Assembly: GCF_007859655.1 (NCBI RefSeq)
Contig: NZ_CP042304.1
Coordinates: 3,970,501 to 4,034,500 of the forward strand
Direction of reading: 5' to 3'
DNA length: 64,000 bases
Source: Devosia ginsengisoli
GTDB lineage: Bacteria > Pseudomonadota > Alphaproteobacteria > Rhizobiales > Devosiaceae
The notes under the pieces were generated by a model, which saw only the letters and a program-made list of their open reading frames with translations, was not told where the DNA came from and made no database searches. Positions 19,580 through 26,004 of this stretch are shown here, in pieces. Every line of letters begins with the position of its first letter. The stretch's first letter is position 1. Made by a program: the position numbers and the translations under genes.

Positions 19580-19993
19580 ATGGCGAAAAAGAAACAGAGC
19601 TCGAACGCCATTGGCTGGGTAATCCTCGGACTCATAGCGTTTGGCATTTTTCAGTTCGGGATCCAGGGAAAACCAGATCGGGGCGCGAGTTCCGCACCGC
19701 AGTCGGCAACCTCTGTCTCCACAACGCAATCGCATTCTGTGTCGACGCCGCTCAACGTGCCGCGCTTTGTCAATGTCGCGTCGCTCAACGTTCGCCACTC
19801 TCCGAGCGTGTCGGGTGAGCTGATCATGACGCTTCCCCGCGGAACCTCGTTGAGAGTGCTGGACCGGCAGGATGGATGGCTTCTTGTAGACTTGAGCCCC
19901 ACACTCGAAGGCTGGGTTACAGAGCGCCTCACCACAGTCCAGGGCCCGGCGCCGCGCTATATACCGCCCGCGCCAATGATAGGTTCGAGGTAG
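19580..19993 (+). CDS. Membrane-anchored SH3-domain protein
   Basis: A 137-aa protein with a short basic N-terminus (MAKKKQSS), one membrane helix (AIGWVILGLIAFGIFQFGI), a Ser/Thr-rich linker, and a bacterial SH3 (SH3_3) domain. The domain is recognised by SLNVRHSPSVSGELIMTLPR and LDRQDGWLLVDLSPTLEGWV. Such domains bind peptidoglycan or proteins in the periplasm. The frame extends upstream to 19511, but ATG 19580 begins the charged-then-hydrophobic N-terminus and is preferred. It stands alone between the IclR gene and the sulfur cluster. A link to either is not shown. Confidence 0.75.
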   Translation: MAKKKQSSNAIGWVILGLIAFGIFQFGIQGKPDRGASSAPQSATSVSTTQSHSVSTPLNVPRFVNVASLNVRHSPSVSGELIMTLPRGTSLRVLDRQDGWLLVDLSPTLEGWVTERLTTVQGPAPRYIPPAPMIGSR

Positions 19994-20030: not shown

Positions 20031-20612
20031 TCAGCGACTGATATTCAGGGACGACGTGACCTCAAGGCTCCGGTCCTCCCGCACGGCGCGGATATCGCCT
20101 TCACCAGCATGGCTCGTCAGCTTTGCGTCGCGATCGCGGATCAACTGTGCGATCTCGGGCTGATACTGCCGCAGCACGGCGGTCAGCCAGCGATTGACCA
20201 GATAGGACGGCTTGGCGAGTTCCATGTCAAAGCGTGGCAATAGCGCAATGGTCGGCTCGGCATCGAGCCAAGTGTCGCCGACCACCCACTGGTTGACCGT
20301 GAACAGCCGATGGAGCTTGCCATAGGCGTCGACGCCGACGGCAACCAGATGGTGCACGGGGCCTTGGGCGCCATCGGGGCGGACGAAGCAATGATAGTGC
20401 CCGTGCTCGATGTCGTCGGCCGGTGGCAGGTGGCAGTGGTAGTACCATTGCCCACCACTTTCGGGATCGAAGACATCGCCGGGCGGATAGTGTTCCCAGG
20501 CCGCGACAGGCGCATCGCGCAGGGTTTCGCGCAGGACGTTCTCGGCCGACTTGGCAAGAAGGCGTTCGCAAAAGGCTGCTTCCTGAGCCGCCCGCTCGCG
20601 TTCTGCGTCCAT
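20031..20612 (-). CDS. Conserved-looking hypothetical protein with His/Cys cluster
   Basis: A 193-aa soluble protein with no signal peptide that I do not firmly recognise. The N-terminal third is helical and charged (DAERERAAQEAAFCERLLAK). The middle carries a dense His/Cys segment: GGQWYYHCHLPP, then HGHYHCFVRPDG, then PVHHLVAVGVDAYGK and FTVNQWVVGD. This could be a metal site. ATG 20612 is preceded by a strong AGGAGG. It lies nine bases downstream of the cysteine-repeat gene, on the same strand as the YeeE transporter, so it is probably co-transcribed in the sulfur cluster. Confidence 0.7.
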   Translation of the reverse strand: MDAERERAAQEAAFCERLLAKSAENVLRETLRDAPVAAWEHYPPGDVFDPESGGQWYYHCHLPPADDIEHGHYHCFVRPDGAQGPVHHLVAVGVDAYGKLHRLFTVNQWVVGDTWLDAEPTIALLPRFDMELAKPSYLVNRWLTAVLRQYQPEIAQLIRDRDAKLTSHAGEGDIRAVREDRSLEVTSSLNISR

Positions 20613-20621
20613 GCCGACCTC

Positions 20622-21014
20622 CTATTGTGCCCCTGCCGCGCAGGGATTGACCGCTGCACAGGGTGCACCAGCCGCACAAGGATTGGCGACCGGCGCCGGC
20701 GCCGCAGCCGCACAGGGCGCAGCGGCGGGCGCACCAGCAGCGCACGGATTCGCCGGGGCCACAGCAGCGCAAGGATTTGCCGGTGCCCCAGCGGCGCAGG
20801 GATTGCCAGCCGCGCATGGGTTTGCGACCGGCGCAGCGGCCGCGCAGGAGTTGCCGGCGGCGCAAGGGTTGCCTGCAGCGCAGGGATTCGCGGCTGCTGC
20901 TGCCGCTGGGACCGGGGCCGGTGCTCGAACCGAGCTGCTGACGTGATCGGCAGCGACAGCGGCGGTCGCGACGAGGGCTGCAGCCCCGAAAAGCAAGGTG
21001 TTGCGTGCGCTCAT
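20622..21014 (-). CDS. Exported Ala/Pro/Cys-repeat protein (NPCAA repeats)
   Basis: A 130-aa protein of unknown function. Residues 1-22 form a signal peptide (MSARNTLLFGAAALVATAAV, cleavage near VAA-DH). The mature part is almost only Ala, Pro, Asn, Gly and Cys. It has eleven cysteines, eight in NPCAA units and the others in NSC or APC variants, mostly every 5-8 residues. The only charged mature residues (D, H, R) lie close to the cleavage site. Its ATG overlaps the stop of the YeeE/YedE transporter gene (ATGA), so the two are translationally coupled. This regular array of periplasmic thiols beside thiosulfate-type transport and rhodanese genes suggests sulfane-sulfur carriage or soft-metal binding. 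That is inference; no catalytic motif exists. Confidence 0.72.
   Translation of the reverse strand: MSARNTLLFGAAALVATAAVAADHVSSSVRAPAPVPAAAAAANPCAAGNPCAAGNSCAAAAPVANPCAAGNPCAAGAPANPCAAVAPANPCAAGAPAAAPCAAAAPAPVANPCAAGAPCAAVNPCAAGAQ
20637..20900 (-). repeat. Imperfect coding tandem repeats of about 15-27 bases (NPCAA units)
   Basis: On the (-) strand the DNA repeats AAYCCYTGCGCNGC-type units with variable spacers. The units are degenerate at the third codon position while the amino acids stay constant, which argues for selection on the protein and not a recent slippage expansion. Confidence 0.6.
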
Positions 21015-22222
21015 TTCCGCTTGAATCCATCAAGGCCAAAGACCGGCCGAAGGGCGATGCCACCAAGGCTGCCGACAAAGGCCGCGGCAAACCACAGCCA
21101 GCCATGCACGCTGCCCGAGGCAATGCCACTGAACAGCGCGCCGATATTGCAGCCGAAGCTGAGGCGTGCGCCATAGCCCATCAGCATCCCGCCAATGGCC
21201 GCGGCCAGCAGCGACAGGAAGGGCAAAGCCGCCTTAGGCGCAAACTTGCCGGCAAGACCCGCGGCAAGAGCGGCGCCGAGGATCAGGCCGAAATCCATGA
21301 CCGAGGTGGAATCTTCCAGCACACTGGACTGCAGGGCCTGCGCCTGCGCCGGCCAGGTCCAGAATTCCCAGGTGGCCACCGGGACGCCGACGGCCTGGGC
21401 GATCTTGGCGCCCCAGAGGCCAAAGCCATAGGTGATCGACCACGGATGGCCGGCGACCAACAAGGTCAGGATATTGAGCCCGGCCAGCGCCAGGCCGGCG
21501 CCAACCAATGGCCAGGGGCCATGCAGCAGGCGCGCCCAGCCGCTTGCGGCCGGAGCCTTGATGGTTTCAAGCGCGCCATGCCGGCGACGTTCCACGAGCA
21601 CGGTAATAAGTGCCACGGCGCCGAGGCCAGCCAGCGTGACGAGAAGGGCCAGGGGAACGCCGAGACTGGTACCAAGAGCGATGGCAGGCAGCGAAGGTTG
21701 GGTCAGCCAGAAGGGCAGATGTGCTGTGCCCAGGAGCGCGCCGACGATGAAAAATGCGAGGGTCACCAGCATGCGGGAACTGCCGCCGCCGACGGTGAAG
21801 AGAGTACCCGAACCGCAACCGCCGCCCAACTGCATGCCGAGGCCGAACATGGCTGCACCAAGCAATACCGAAACGCCAACCGGCGCGGTGGCGCCGGCTA
21901 GCGGCTGGCCGAAGGGATTGCCCAGGGTCAGGAGAGGAATGAACGCCAGCGCCGCCACGCCGATCATCACCATCTGGGCGCGCATGGCATGACCGCGCCC
22001 TTCGACCACCATACGGCGCCAGCCACCGGTAAAGCCGAAAGACGCGTGATAGAGCGTCAGGCCCATCAGGCTGCCGATTAGAAACAGTGCCGCTTGCCGC
22101 AGGTCGGCGAGCTGCCAGATGGCAAGCGTGCCGAAGGCCAGAGCAAGGCTTGTGAACCATACCGGGCCGCGATCGAAGGGAATGGGTGCCGGACGCAGCT
22201 GGCCAGCGGTCGTGTCAGTCAT
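21011..22222 (-). CDS. YeeE/YedE family sulfur-compound transporter
   Basis: Polytopic inner-membrane protein, 403 aa, of the YeeE/YedE (TsuA-like) family that imports thiosulfate or related sulfur species. Two family cysteine motifs are present: GMQLGGGCGSGTLFTVGGG in the first half and RLSFGCNIGALFSGIASGS in the second, the cysteines thought to pass the sulfur compound through the pore. About nine to ten hydrophobic segments are visible. ATG 22222 follows GAGGC; a GTG one codon upstream is less likely. It is followed by the overlapping NPCAA-repeat gene and preceded by a sulfurtransferase, all on the same strand. Confidence 0.88.
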   Translation of the reverse strand: MTDTTAGQLRPAPIPFDRGPVWFTSLALAFGTLAIWQLADLRQAALFLIGSLMGLTLYHASFGFTGGWRRMVVEGRGHAMRAQMVMIGVAALAFIPLLTLGNPFGQPLAGATAPVGVSVLLGAAMFGLGMQLGGGCGSGTLFTVGGGSSRMLVTLAFFIVGALLGTAHLPFWLTQPSLPAIALGTSLGVPLALLVTLAGLGAVALITVLVERRRHGALETIKAPAASGWARLLHGPWPLVGAGLALAGLNILTLLVAGHPWSITYGFGLWGAKIAQAVGVPVATWEFWTWPAQAQALQSSVLEDSTSVMDFGLILGAALAAGLAGKFAPKAALPFLSLLAAAIGGMLMGYGARLSFGCNIGALFSGIASGSVHGWLWFAAAFVGSLGGIALRPVFGLDGFKRK

Positions 22223-22245
22223 CACATGCCTCGATAGAGAACGAA

Positions 22246-22295: not shown

Positions 22296-23213
22296 TCAGT
22301 TGGTGACAACCGGGCGGCTCGGATCGGAGGTCCAATCGGACATGGAACCATCATAAAGCCGCACATTTGGCAGGCCCTCGACTTCCGACAGGCCGAACCA
22401 GGCGATCGACGCCAGATGGCCGGTATTGCAGAAGGCGATGAAGCCGTCGCTATCGGCCACGCCAGCATCCTTGGCCAGCTTCGCGATGATGTCGGCGCTG
22501 GCAAAGGCCGGCTTGTCCGCGTCATAGAACTTGTCGAAGTTGATATTGATGGCCGACGGAATGTGACCCAGCGCCTGCACCGTATTGGTCTTTTCCTGGC
22601 CGATGAACTGGGCGACCGAACGGGCGTCGACGAGGTTGACGTCGCTAGCGATGGCTTCGTTCACTTCAGCCACTTCGGCGCGCAGTTCCGGACGGAATTC
22701 GGCGTCGAACGTGGCGGCGACCGGGGTCACGGCATCGGTCGAGAGTTCGCCATTGGCCTTGGCCCAGGCAGCATAGCCGCCATCAAGGATCGATACATTG
22801 TCATGTCCGTAGACCTTGAAGGTCCAGTAAACGCGGGTCGCGCCGCCGAAATCGGACGCGTTTGCGCCACCGGTGAGGATGACGACATGGCTGTCATTGC
22901 TGACGCCGAGGCCCGAAACCAGCGTCTCGATGGCCTCCTCAGTGGGCAGCAGGCCAGGAACGTTGCCAACCTTGGCGCGCCAGCCGGAAGCAGCATAGGG
23001 CGCAGCGACGGCGCCCGGCACGTGGCCGGCAGCATAGAGGTCGCCGGCATCGGTCGCATCGCGGATGTCCAGCACGACGAGGCTTTCATTCCCCAGATGC
23101 TGGGCGAGCCAGGCGGCATCGACCAAAGGCTGGTCGGTCAGGCGCTCGGCATGGGCAGCGCCGGTCAGGATCAGGGCGGCGGCCATGGCGGCGCCAGCGA
23201 GTTTGAGATGCAT
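22296..23213 (-). CDS. Periplasmic thiosulfate/3-mercaptopyruvate sulfurtransferase (two rhodanese domains)
   Basis: Sulfurtransferase of 305 aa with a signal peptide (MHLKLAGAAMAAALILTGAA, cleavage after AHA). It has two rhodanese domains: residues about 28-155 (LVVLDIRDATDAGDLYAAGH, no cysteine, structural) and about 180-300 with the catalytic cysteine C262 in FIAFCNTGHLAS. ATG 23213 has AGGAG upstream; the frame runs on upstream without support. It would move sulfane sulfur from thiosulfate or a persulfide to a thiol acceptor in the periplasm. It sits upstream of the YeeE transporter on the same strand and is divergent from the thioredoxin-CcdA genes. Confidence 0.9.
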   Translation of the reverse strand: MHLKLAGAAMAAALILTGAAHAERLTDQPLVDAAWLAQHLGNESLVVLDIRDATDAGDLYAAGHVPGAVAAPYAASGWRAKVGNVPGLLPTEEAIETLVSGLGVSNDSHVVILTGGANASDFGGATRVYWTFKVYGHDNVSILDGGYAAWAKANGELSTDAVTPVAATFDAEFRPELRAEVAEVNEAIASDVNLVDARSVAQFIGQEKTNTVQALGHIPSAININFDKFYDADKPAFASADIIAKLAKDAGVADSDGFIAFCNTGHLASIAWFGLSEVEGLPNVRLYDGSMSDWTSDPSRPVVTN

Positions 23214-23418: not shown

Positions 23419-23850
23419 ATGACCCGAGCCATGTTGACCCTTCCCCGCCTTGCCCTTGCCGTGGCTCTGGCCCTCGCTCCGGTGCCAGGCTGGGCGCAGC
23501 AAGAAGCTGGGTCTGTTACCGAGCAAGCGGCGCCACGAGCGACGGTGCTGAGCTTTGAGACTGAAGCGCAGCTTAATGCGCTCGCCTCGGAGGGCACGAC
23601 GGTCGTGTTCTTTTATGCAGCTTGGTGCCCCAATTGCCGAGCCACCATCGCCGAGCTCAATGCGCGGTGGGCAGAAGTGAATCCGGACCTGACGGTCGTC
23701 ATTGCCGACTATGACGCGGAAACCGCGCTCAAGGGCAAGTTCGGCGTGACCTATCAGGACACTTTCGTGTTGCTCGACACCGAAGGGAATTCCGTCAAGT
23801 CGTGGAATGCTGGCGGGGTCGATGGCCTCAATGCCAACAGTGCCAGCTAG
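23419..23850 (+). CDS. Secreted thioredoxin-family protein
   Basis: A 143-aa periplasmic thioredoxin. The signal peptide is MTRAMLTLPRLALAVALALA, with cleavage after GWAQ. The redox motif is in VVFFYAAWCPNCRATIAEL (C70-P-N-C73), followed by the thioredoxin strand LTVVIADYDAE and the cis-proline-type segment YQDTFVLLDTEG. It overlaps nothing and is 9 bases upstream of a CcdA-like gene. That pairing supports electron supply from the membrane protein to this thioredoxin, which could in turn reduce persulfides on the neighbouring rhodaneses. ATG 23431 is an alternative start. Confidence 0.88.
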   Translation: MTRAMLTLPRLALAVALALAPVPGWAQQEAGSVTEQAAPRATVLSFETEAQLNALASEGTTVVFFYAAWCPNCRATIAELNARWAEVNPDLTVVIADYDAETALKGKFGVTYQDTFVLLDTEGNSVKSWNAGGVDGLNANSAS

Positions 23851-23859
23851 ACGCCGCAC

Positions 23860-24582
23860 ATGCTGCTGACCATAGGTTTTGCCTTTCTGGCCGGTGTGAT
23901 CACCGTGCTGTCGCCCTGCGTCCTGCCGCTGCTGCCGATCATTCTGAGCTCCGGCGCGCAAGAGGGGCGGGCGCGGCCCGTTGGGCTGATTGTGGGCTTC
24001 GTTGGCGCCTTCACCGCTGCCACACTGGCCCTTAGCTACCTCGTGCGATCGCTCGGCGTGCCGCCCGATCTCAATCGCATCCTTGCGGGTACAGTGTTGA
24101 TCGCGCTGGGCCTGGTGCTCGCCATTCCCCTGCTGCACCGGGGCTTTGAGCGGTTTGCGGGGATAGTCGTCAGCCGCATGCCCGTGCCGCAGAACGGCTC
24201 GGGTTTTGGCGGTGGCCTGGTCATCGGCGCCGGACTGGGCCTGGCCTGGAGCCCATGCGTCGGTCCCATCATGGCTTCCGTGATCACACTGGCGCTGAAC
24301 CAGCAGGTGGATGCAGCGGCCGTGGCAGTCACCCTGGCATTTTCATTGGGCACAGCGCTGCCAATGGCCGCCATCATGCTTGGCGGCCGGCAATTGACGC
24401 GACGACTGGGCTGGTTCCAGGCCAATGCCGGGCGCATCCAGCAGGTGCTCGGCGGTCTGCTGGTGTTGACCGGTCTCGCGATCTTCCTGGGTTGGGACCG
24501 CCAGATCCAGATATTGCTGCTGACCTGGTTTCCCGACTGGGAACTGGCCCTGACAGGCTGGGAGCCCCGCCCGGATCTTTGA
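23860..24582 (+). CDS. CcdA/DsbD-type membrane thiol-disulfide electron transporter
   Basis: Polytopic membrane protein of 240 aa in the CcdA family, carrying reductant from cytosolic thioredoxin to periplasmic thiol proteins. The two redox cysteines are in the paired motifs VLSPCVLPLLPIILSS (near residue 20) and AWSPCVGPIMASV (near residue 132). Six or seven membrane helices are visible. The gene is adjacent to the secreted thioredoxin and upstream of the three-domain rhodanese, forming a (+) unit inside the sulfur cluster. A cytochrome c maturation role is the other possibility, but no ccm genes are nearby. Confidence 0.88.
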   Translation: MLLTIGFAFLAGVITVLSPCVLPLLPIILSSGAQEGRARPVGLIVGFVGAFTAATLALSYLVRSLGVPPDLNRILAGTVLIALGLVLAIPLLHRGFERFAGIVVSRMPVPQNGSGFGGGLVIGAGLGLAWSPCVGPIMASVITLALNQQVDAAAVAVTLAFSLGTALPMAAIMLGGRQLTRRLGWFQANAGRIQQVLGGLLVLTGLAIFLGWDRQIQILLLTWFPDWELALTGWEPRPDL

Positions 24583-24714
24583 GTATTCTTTCGGCAGGCG
24601 GCTGGGCAAAAAATCCTGCCGCTTCACGTTGCAAGAACGCAATCCTATCCGTTGAAATTGACGACCAATCGAGTCGAGTATCATCGGGTCGCCAAATCGG
24701 AAAGGATTGCCATC

Positions 24715-26004
24715 GTGGCCCAGCTTGGAAACCGCTCGCTTCTTACCACCGCTCTTGCCGCAATATCGCTTCATGCTCTCGCTTTGGGGGCGGCTCCCCT
24801 CGCCGTGGCACTCGTCACCGCTCCGAGCCAGGCACAGTCGGCAGCGGTCAACATCATCACCGGCCAGCCCGAATTCGAGAGCCTGTTGAATGACGGCGCC
24901 AAGCTCATCGACGTGCGCTCGGCTGCCGCCTATGCCGAAGGGCATGTGGCTGGCGCGATCAATCTGCCCTGGCAGGCGCTCAATGTCTCGGAGACCGATG
25001 GCATCCGCAATGAATTTGCCAGTGACGCGACTTTCGAAGAGCTGCTGGGCAAGGCAGGGCTCAGCTATGACGACACCATCCTGATCTACGATACCAACGC
25101 CTTGCCCGGCCGCGCCTATGTCGCCTTTGTCTATGCGGGTTTCGACAAGGTCCATGTCCTCGATGGTGGCATAGGAGTCTGGCAGGGCGAGCTCAGCACC
25201 GAGCCGGTCGAGGTCGCTGCAACGCCGTTCAGGCTCGAGCGCAAGAACGATATTCGCGTCTCCAAGGACTACGTGGCCAGCAAGGTCGGCGACGCCAATG
25301 CGGTGATCATCGATGGCCGGAACGGCGACGCCTATGCCGATGGCCACATCCCGGGCGCGCAGACGCTGCCGGCGTCGAGCCTTCTGACGCCCGCGGCAAC
25401 GCTGCAATCCGAGCCGGTATTGCTCGAGCTGCTCAACACTGCCGGCGTCAGCCCGGATCGGGAGGTCGTGTCCTACTGCGGTAGCGGCGTCGCGGCGGCC
25501 AACAATTATCTGGCGCTGCGCAATCTGGGCTACCAGAACGTGGTGCTTTACGACGCAAGCTGGGACGAGTGGAGCCGCGATCCACGCTCGGGCCAGCAAC
25601 TGGCCCTCGCCAACTACACCTTCGAAGGCTCGGACACTTCTGCGGATGTCGGTCCGCAATTCCTTGACGAAGCTGCGGTCAAGGCCCTGGCGCAGGATCC
25701 AAATGTCGTGGTGCTGGATGTTCGCGCACCATCAGACTATGCGGCCGGCCATATCCCCGGCTCGATCAACCTGTTCTGGGACCAGACCCTCGATGCCGAC
25801 CGCGTGCTGCTGCCGGTGGAACAGTTGCAAAAGCTTTATGCCGATGCCGGCGTAACGCCCGACAAGCGCGTGGTGCTGTTCACGCGGGGCGGCCAGCAAC
25901 TCTCACACAGCTTCACCGTGCTGAGCATCCTGGGCTTCTCTGATGTGGATTTCTTCACTGGCAAGTTCGAGGGCTGGGAAAACGGCGCCTTCAAGCGCAC
26001 GTAA
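24715..26004 (+). CDS. Periplasmic protein with three rhodanese domains, one active
   Basis: A 429-aa exported protein with a long signal region (to PSQAQSA, residue 43). Three rhodanese domains follow. Domain 1 (about 48-160) has the CH2A-type LIDVRSAAAYAEGHVAGAIN but Asp126 where the active cysteine belongs (ILIYDTNALPG). Domain 2 (about 178-290) has the intact loop SYCGSGVAA with C255. Domain 3 (about 315-425) has LDVRAPSDYAAGHIPGSIN but LFTRGGQQLS, with no cysteine. The GTG at 24715 has GGAAAGG nine bases upstream and is preferred over a TTG at 24652. It probably transfers or binds sulfane sulfur, with domains 1 and 3 as binding or dimer surfaces. Confidence 0.85.
   Translation: MAQLGNRSLLTTALAAISLHALALGAAPLAVALVTAPSQAQSAAVNIITGQPEFESLLNDGAKLIDVRSAAAYAEGHVAGAINLPWQALNVSETDGIRNEFASDATFEELLGKAGLSYDDTILIYDTNALPGRAYVAFVYAGFDKVHVLDGGIGVWQGELSTEPVEVAATPFRLERKNDIRVSKDYVASKVGDANAVIIDGRNGDAYADGHIPGAQTLPASSLLTPAATLQSEPVLLELLNTAGVSPDREVVSYCGSGVAAANNYLALRNLGYQNVVLYDASWDEWSRDPRSGQQLALANYTFEGSDTSADVGPQFLDEAAVKALAQDPNVVVLDVRAPSDYAAGHIPGSINLFWDQTLDADRVLLPVEQLQKLYADAGVTPDKRVVLFTRGGQQLSHSFTVLSILGFSDVDFFTGKFEGWENGAFKRT

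Follow-up and report, generated by a model that had tools for sequence, protein, structure and literature searches.

Organization of the locus

The window considered here is the whole stretch of 64,000 nucleotides from Devosia ginsengisoli. Within it, a short cysteine-rich protein is encoded on the minus strand between the genes of a YeeE-type transporter and a DUF6969 protein, with rhodanese, thioredoxin-like, and CcdA-like genes nearby. The features are as follows.

20031..20612, minus strand: DUF6969 protein (PF22308, 243.3 bits in Pfam), cytoplasmic as judged by eye, with an invariant His cluster
20622..21014, minus strand: Pro-Cys array protein of 130 amino acids with 11 Cys in NPCAA, APCAA, and NSCAA units, defined by its open reading frame (ORF) and genus orthologues
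20634..20888, minus strand: cysteine array, residues 43–127 of the array protein, defined by Pro-Cys conservation in 39 genus homologues
20943..21014, minus strand: predicted N-terminal anchor or signal segment of the array protein, MSARNTLLFGAAALVATAAVAADH, based on conservation of LFG, an Ala-rich stretch, and Asp
21011..22225, minus strand: YeeE/TsuA-like sulfur transporter (PF04143) with Cys137 and Cys359, from Pfam and alignment to TsuA
22296..23213, minus strand: two-domain rhodanese (PF00581, two stretches) with a signal-peptide-like start
23419..23850, plus strand: thioredoxin-like protein with a CPNC motif (PF00085), divergent
23860..24582, plus strand: CcdA/DsbD-type membrane protein (PF13386, PF02683)
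24652..26004, plus strand: three-domain rhodanese protein (PF00581, three stretches)

The cysteines of the array protein lie at residues 45, 51, 57, 67, 73, 82, 91, 101, 113, 119, and 125, and from residue 23 onward the chain comprises 47 Ala, 19 Pro, 11 Cys, 9 Asn, 7 Gly, 7 Val, and 4 Ser, with Asp, His, Arg, and Gln occurring once each. The ORF and its composition agree with the original prediction of a low-complexity chain with eleven cysteines at this position, and the overlap that had been claimed between its start codon and the transporter stop codon is seen in the sequence as ATGA, which supplies both the ATG and the TGA. A Pfam and NCBIfam scan covering ten window proteins recovered the flanking rhodaneses, thioredoxin, and CcdA as had been described, and matched the array protein to no family. 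The array protein is probably disordered and exported, its signal peptide being judged by eye. The DUF6969 gene begins 9 bases downstream of the array gene, and just past it, on the plus strand (19580–19993), lies a gene for a small SH3_3-domain protein.

Conservation of the array across the genus

The YeeE orthologue was found in 44 of 61 genus genomes (45 counting a remote match in G052), and DUF6969 is present in exactly the same 44. The array protein as a query found only 23 of the 61, an undercount because the array repeats diverge. Gene neighborhoods were read in 40 of the 43 other genomes (all except G037, G040, and G059), and the array ORF was observed to begin at the YeeE stop or within about 20 bases of it in 39 of them, as the proposed coupling of the array to a YeeE-type transporter would have it; in the one remaining neighborhood (L078, also read as L236), the array is present with its start in another frame. 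A rhodanese gene accompanies the array in all 40 neighborhoods, a linked DUF6969 gene in 37, and the thioredoxin/CcdA pair in 10. In G001, G012, and G044, DUF6969 is unlinked, lying some 1.6 Mb distant or on a different contig, and each time near the same aminotransferase-like gene, so that the relocation was probably a single event. Near the relocated gene of G001, and away from YeeE, there is also a thioredoxin-like gene (PF00085; L228, 3167–3592). Contig C11 of G059 (L227) carries a second, different DUF6969 with NPC arrays, which could reflect contamination or transfer.

Conservation of the array gene across the genus is seen at the protein level. Pro precedes 248 of the 249 array cysteines in 39 homologues (156 APC, 55 NPC, and 34 SPC), and it is retained in L106, where the spacers are quite different (e.g., DLSYSPCSVAAPP). 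The number of cysteines per array ranges from 2 to 16, with 2–4 in 23 of the 39, and the spacers vary. Within 443 kb of sequence from the 40 neighborhoods, eight ORFs contain at least three NPC motifs, all of them array ORFs. Codons vary from unit to unit within the array gene, and third-base variation of this kind had been taken as a sign of selection on the cysteines. Among eight close homologues, Cys columns show synonymous differences in 45% and non-synonymous differences in 8% of comparisons, versus 31% and 49% for Gly and 27% and 53% for Val, with Cys and Pro being the least changed in amino acid while their codons drift; these values are indicative only, as the aligner favors Cys columns.

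The N-terminus of the genus homologues consists of LFG, then an Ala-rich stretch, and then a conserved Asp, mostly as Asp-His—an arrangement also kept in other families (L250, L258, L261, and L272). In L086 and L090, Val replaces the usual Ala ahead of the expected cleavage point. The segment looks like more than a disposable signal; judging from its sequence, it may remain membrane-embedded and hold the array close to YeeE.

The YeeE transporter and its wider context

The YeeE of the window belongs to the Sulf_transp family (237.9 bits, cut-off 27), and scores below the curated cut-offs of the NCBIfam TsuA models (59.7 bits versus 400, and 35.6 versus 645). Its cysteines are exactly two, and their motifs align with those of Cys91 and Cys293 in TsuA (6leo), residues called indispensable in an excerpt of PMC11582611. 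Both are present in all 39 genus YeeE sequences caught by the pattern, 34 of which have no other core cysteine. Thus, the protein resembles the transporter of the YeeE-YeeD (TsuA-TsuB) thiosulfate uptake system in its family and core cysteines, but differs in two respects: it lacks an equivalent of C22, the third cysteine of TsuA, which an excerpt of PMC11073785 ties to the YeeD interface, and no YeeD or TusA is among the ten window proteins scanned, two TusA-family matches being located elsewhere in the genome. SoxT transporters, studied in an alphaproteobacterium, are likewise YeeE-type proteins tied to sulfur handling, in a field of sulfur import termed poorly understood (PMC11582611); unlike in those systems, the scanned window proteins include no sox or shdr products, and a cysteine array and DUF6969 are found instead.

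Such a YeeE (E ≤ 1e-60) occurs in 37 of 337 genomes of the class. Among the matches listed, 29 loci were examined, with the window's own set aside and L257 being the same place as L250; an array was found at 6 of these loci and a DUF6969 match within 1.5 kb at 4 (that of L259 partial). An array or array-like protein with the same N-terminal anchor adjoins YeeE homologues of 62–71% identity. In detail, for the six loci with a YeeE of at least 61% identity, the LFG...DH anchor heads an array in L257, L261, and L272, and a variant of the anchor does so in L259; L258 has the anchor with three cysteines followed by DUF6969, and L260 shows neither array nor anchor. Two of the other 23 loci have a classic NPC array nearby.

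The set of rhodanese, YeeE, array, and DUF6969 genes recurs, rearranged, in other families. L231 contains YeeE, an array of SPC and NPC motifs, DUF6969, and rhodanese. L234 and L235, from one genus, contain two half-length Sulf_transp proteins, a four-NPC protein, DUF6969, a rhodanese-like protein, and an ArsR regulator, and further on a SoxCD-like pair, in which a cytochrome accompanies a molybdopterin oxidoreductase that carries a Mo-co dimer domain, these assignments having been checked against Pfam mainly in L234. L250 contains rhodanese, YeeE, and an array with the same N-terminal anchor; DUF6969 lies elsewhere in that genome, adjoining another NPC array and a gene resembling formylglycine-generating enzymes (FGE). 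The coupling with YeeE and rhodanese that had been proposed thus holds beyond the genus in L231, L234, L235, L250, L259, and L261.

DUF6969 as the most constant partner of Pro-Cys arrays outside the genus

Outside the genus, the most constant partner of the array is DUF6969, a gene that the original prediction had not mentioned. The window protein is a member of the family over residues 7–191 of 193 (cut-off 27 bits), with five to six invariant His residues, among them H59, H61, H72, H74, and H88, and no invariant Cys. Its AlphaFold model is confident; comparison with solved structures gave no confident match and named no enzyme relative. In the literature searched, where subscription papers fall mostly outside coverage, no paper on DUF6969 or on such Pro-Cys array repeats was found.

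At least 580 relatives were confirmed in a scan of genome contigs, and the best 80, biased toward one subfamily, were kept with flanks of up to 7 kb, often shorter. A flanking ORF with at least three NPC motifs was found at 61 of these 80 loci, including 31 of the 39 with full 7-kb flanks; at the other 19, of which 8 have full flanks, no array was seen. YeeE is present at 13 of the 80, and at 12 of the 61 bearing arrays. A YeeD-like role of DUF6969 is less likely because arrays dominate over YeeE at these loci and no Cys is invariant. Of 299 genomes drawn evenly from the phylum, 11 have DUF6969, and clustered NPCxxxNPC repeats, counted by hand, occur in 6 of these 11 versus 9 of the 288 DUF6969-negative genomes (Fisher p = 2e-6), or in 5 of 10 with the window's own genome removed (p = 2e-5), in tests that ignore relatedness. 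The link between DUF6969 and NPC arrays is therefore strong, but not obligatory, since the repeats also cluster in some genomes lacking DUF6969. YeeE was seen at none of the 13 additional array loci that were read in such genomes (L237–L249). Judged by the original refuting condition, homologues occurring mainly away from sulfur or metal genes, the outcome is mixed: within the genus the arrays adjoin YeeE and rhodanese genes, but outside it YeeE is found at a minority of the array-bearing DUF6969 loci. Among the loci from genomes where the search gave no DUF6969, L238, L240, and L242 encode short NPC arrays that have a signal-like start and either charged spacers or a charged tail.

Arrays fused to cytochromes

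A regular expression detected 58 heme-bearing array ORFs in the fetched loci, 32 of them SoxA/TsdA-like and 26 P460-like. All 27 aligned proteins of the SoxA/TsdA type, of the 32 found, match PF21342, and 23 of the 27 also match CCP_MauG, at best more weakly. It is only in these wider array proteins that PF21342, CxxCH, and a second conserved Cys are found, the array protein of the window having no CxxCH. Their best solved relative is 1h31 (E 5e-8), recorded as a diheme cytochrome c, which we take to be SoxA of Rhodovulum sulfidophilum; di-heme peroxidases follow, and then chains named SoxA. The invariant Cys76 of the 27-sequence alignment falls on a cysteine of 1h31 that is presumably a heme ligand. 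According to an excerpt of PMC4423706, TsdA acts via a cysteine S-thiosulfonate on the Cys ligand of its heme.

Up to about 40 NPC motifs precede a cytochrome P460-like domain in L118, L121, L124, L130, and similar loci; the P460 Pfam cut-off is exceeded in L130 and L121 and not in L108, and the L118 candidate matched no Pfam family. In L154, L175, L179, L182, and L185, a one-direction cassette contains an NPC-SoxA/TsdA-type cytochrome, DUF6969, DUF302, and YeeE (DUF302 confirmed by Pfam in L179 and L185, and YeeE in L175).

In SoxYZ, which operates with SoxAX, a periplasmic cysteine carries sulfane sulfur, and the array would work alike if it is a sulfur carrier; distant arrays are fused to cytochromes of the SoxA/TsdA type. 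The array protein differs in having no match to SoxY (PF13501), in having many cysteines instead of one, and in having no GGCGG arm, which we take to be the SoxY motif. A genome-wide search of the window's own genome found no SoxY or SoxA/TsdA family match, with the controls likewise matching nowhere.

A possible sulfane-sulfur array for YeeE

Our tentative preference is for an array of thiols, tethered in the periplasm, that keeps sulfane sulfur ready for YeeE and is served in the cytoplasm by DUF6969, its dedicated and probably metal-dependent partner. The link to sulfur is drawn from gene context. The analysis shows the gene content and its conservation, the co-occurrence of the genes, the constraint on Cys and Pro, the cysteines of the transporter, and the conserved His of DUF6969; we infer the chemistry, along with the export and tethering of the array, its loading with sulfur, the hand-over to YeeE, and the metal binding and activity of DUF6969. 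The array would be a disordered, probably membrane-tethered periplasmic tail presenting 2 to 16 Pro-Cys thiols beside YeeE. Sulfane sulfur would be loaded on these thiols by the two-domain rhodanese, or by spontaneous reaction with thiosulfate or polysulfide, and in distant relatives perhaps supplied by SoxA/TsdA-type heme domains. The array would then concentrate sulfane sulfur at the mouth of YeeE, which would carry sulfur inward along the Cys137/Cys359 pair, and in some members the divergent thioredoxin/CcdA pair would keep the array reduced. DUF6969 would serve Pro-Cys array proteins specifically, its most likely task being to mature or modify them ahead of export.

This sulfur reading is supported by the occurrence of YeeE and DUF6969 in identical genomes, even when unlinked, by the position of the array at the YeeE stop with a rhodanese always near, by the gene set beside ArsR and SoxC/SoxD-like genes in another family, by the arrays with the same anchor beside YeeE homologues of other families, by the SoxA/TsdA fusions together with the TsuA core cysteines kept in YeeE, and by the linkage of DUF6969 with NPC arrays at 61 of the best 80 of at least 580 loci and across genomes. 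Counting against it are the lack of an adjoining YeeE at most array loci outside the genus, the small number of cysteines—few for a store—in most genus homologues, the thioredoxin/CcdA pair in a minority of neighborhoods, the lack of an enzyme relative for DUF6969, the DUF6969 loci with no array seen and the DUF6969-negative genomes with repeats, the metal-related neighbors described below, and, weakly given its controls, the search of the window's own genome.

Metal, redox, and neutral alternatives

A serious rival, though in our estimate a rather unlikely one, is a copper or other soft-metal buffer, in which the exported array would chelate Cu(I), Zn, or Cd in the periplasm much as bufferins do, DUF6969 would load or modify the array, and the transporter would bring sulfur for repair. 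The chains are Cys-rich with an export-like start, and the best 80 DUF6969 loci include MNIO (PF05114) at 5, DUF2063 at 6, FGE-sulfatase proteins at 18, DUF302 at 12, and ECF sigma factors at 7, each in a minority of loci and with one or two members per cluster confirmed by Pfam. The FGE-sulfatase-like proteins lie beside DUF6969 and NPC arrays, for example in L124 (7632–8553) and L118 (3643–4588), in both of which PF03781 was confirmed; the signal-like start in L124 suggests a periplasmic, cysteine-oxidizing type of enzyme beside cysteine arrays. Like the present system, in which DUF6969 would be the modifying enzyme, bufferins and other MNIO-modified proteins pair an exported, Cys-repeat chain with an enzyme dedicated to modifying it and show an association with cytochromes and FGE, including fusions of bufferins with cytochrome c and FGE domains, and formylglycine-generating enzymes are called cuproenzymes (excerpt of PMC12452194). 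However, neither the array protein nor the nine other window proteins scanned are MNIO, DUF2063, a metal pump, or a metal regulator, the array motif is PC and not EGKCG, and DUF6969 has no confident match to a solved structure. Metallothioneins are defined by CxC/CC clusters, whereas the window array, which matches no Pfam family, spaces its cysteines by 6 residues or more and contains neither CxC nor CxxC. Where a sulfane-sulfur carrier and a metal sponge had both been proposed, the coupling to YeeE and rhodanese and the SoxA/TsdA fusions favor sulfur, while the MNIO/DUF2063, DUF302, and FGE neighbors keep metal alive.

It is improbable that the array acts simply as a thiol polymer, whether sacrificial as a redox buffer or structural as a disulfide-linked mesh, that thioredoxin/CcdA keeps reduced and that bears no sulfur or metal cargo: the divergent pair beside the operon, found in some genus neighborhoods, and the thioredoxin-like gene near the unlinked DUF6969 of G001 fit this idea, but the pair was not found in 30 of the 40 neighborhoods, which retain array, YeeE, and rhodanese. 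Functionless drift, in which a repeat tail behind a signal peptide lengthens and shortens, is very hard to credit, since, although repeat number, spacing, and spacers vary widely, down to three cysteines in L258 and no array in L260, the Pro before Cys is kept almost without exception, the N-terminal anchor persists from family to family, and the gene holds its place by YeeE throughout the genus.

Implications

The array and DUF6969 look like an undescribed form of sulfur or metal handling outside the inner membrane. The array falls in no known family and DUF6969 is classed simply as a domain of unknown function; our confidence in the mechanism is modest. The finding ties three unassigned elements together as one testable unit, namely the probably exported Pro-Cys array, the family DUF6969, and the clade of YeeE proteins with no adjacent YeeD. 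More speculatively, DUF6969 could possibly found a new class of multi-His metalloproteins that modify Pro-Cys motifs, or load metal or sulfur on them, in the cytoplasm before export; the exported NPC-array family of proteobacteria, free or fused to SoxA/TsdA-type or P460-type domains, would then be the product of an unrecognized pathway of maturation by which sulfur is charged at transporters and cytochromes. Should Pro-Cys motifs be the target of DUF6969, this protein would represent a new kind of protein-maturation factor, with at least 580 genomic instances.
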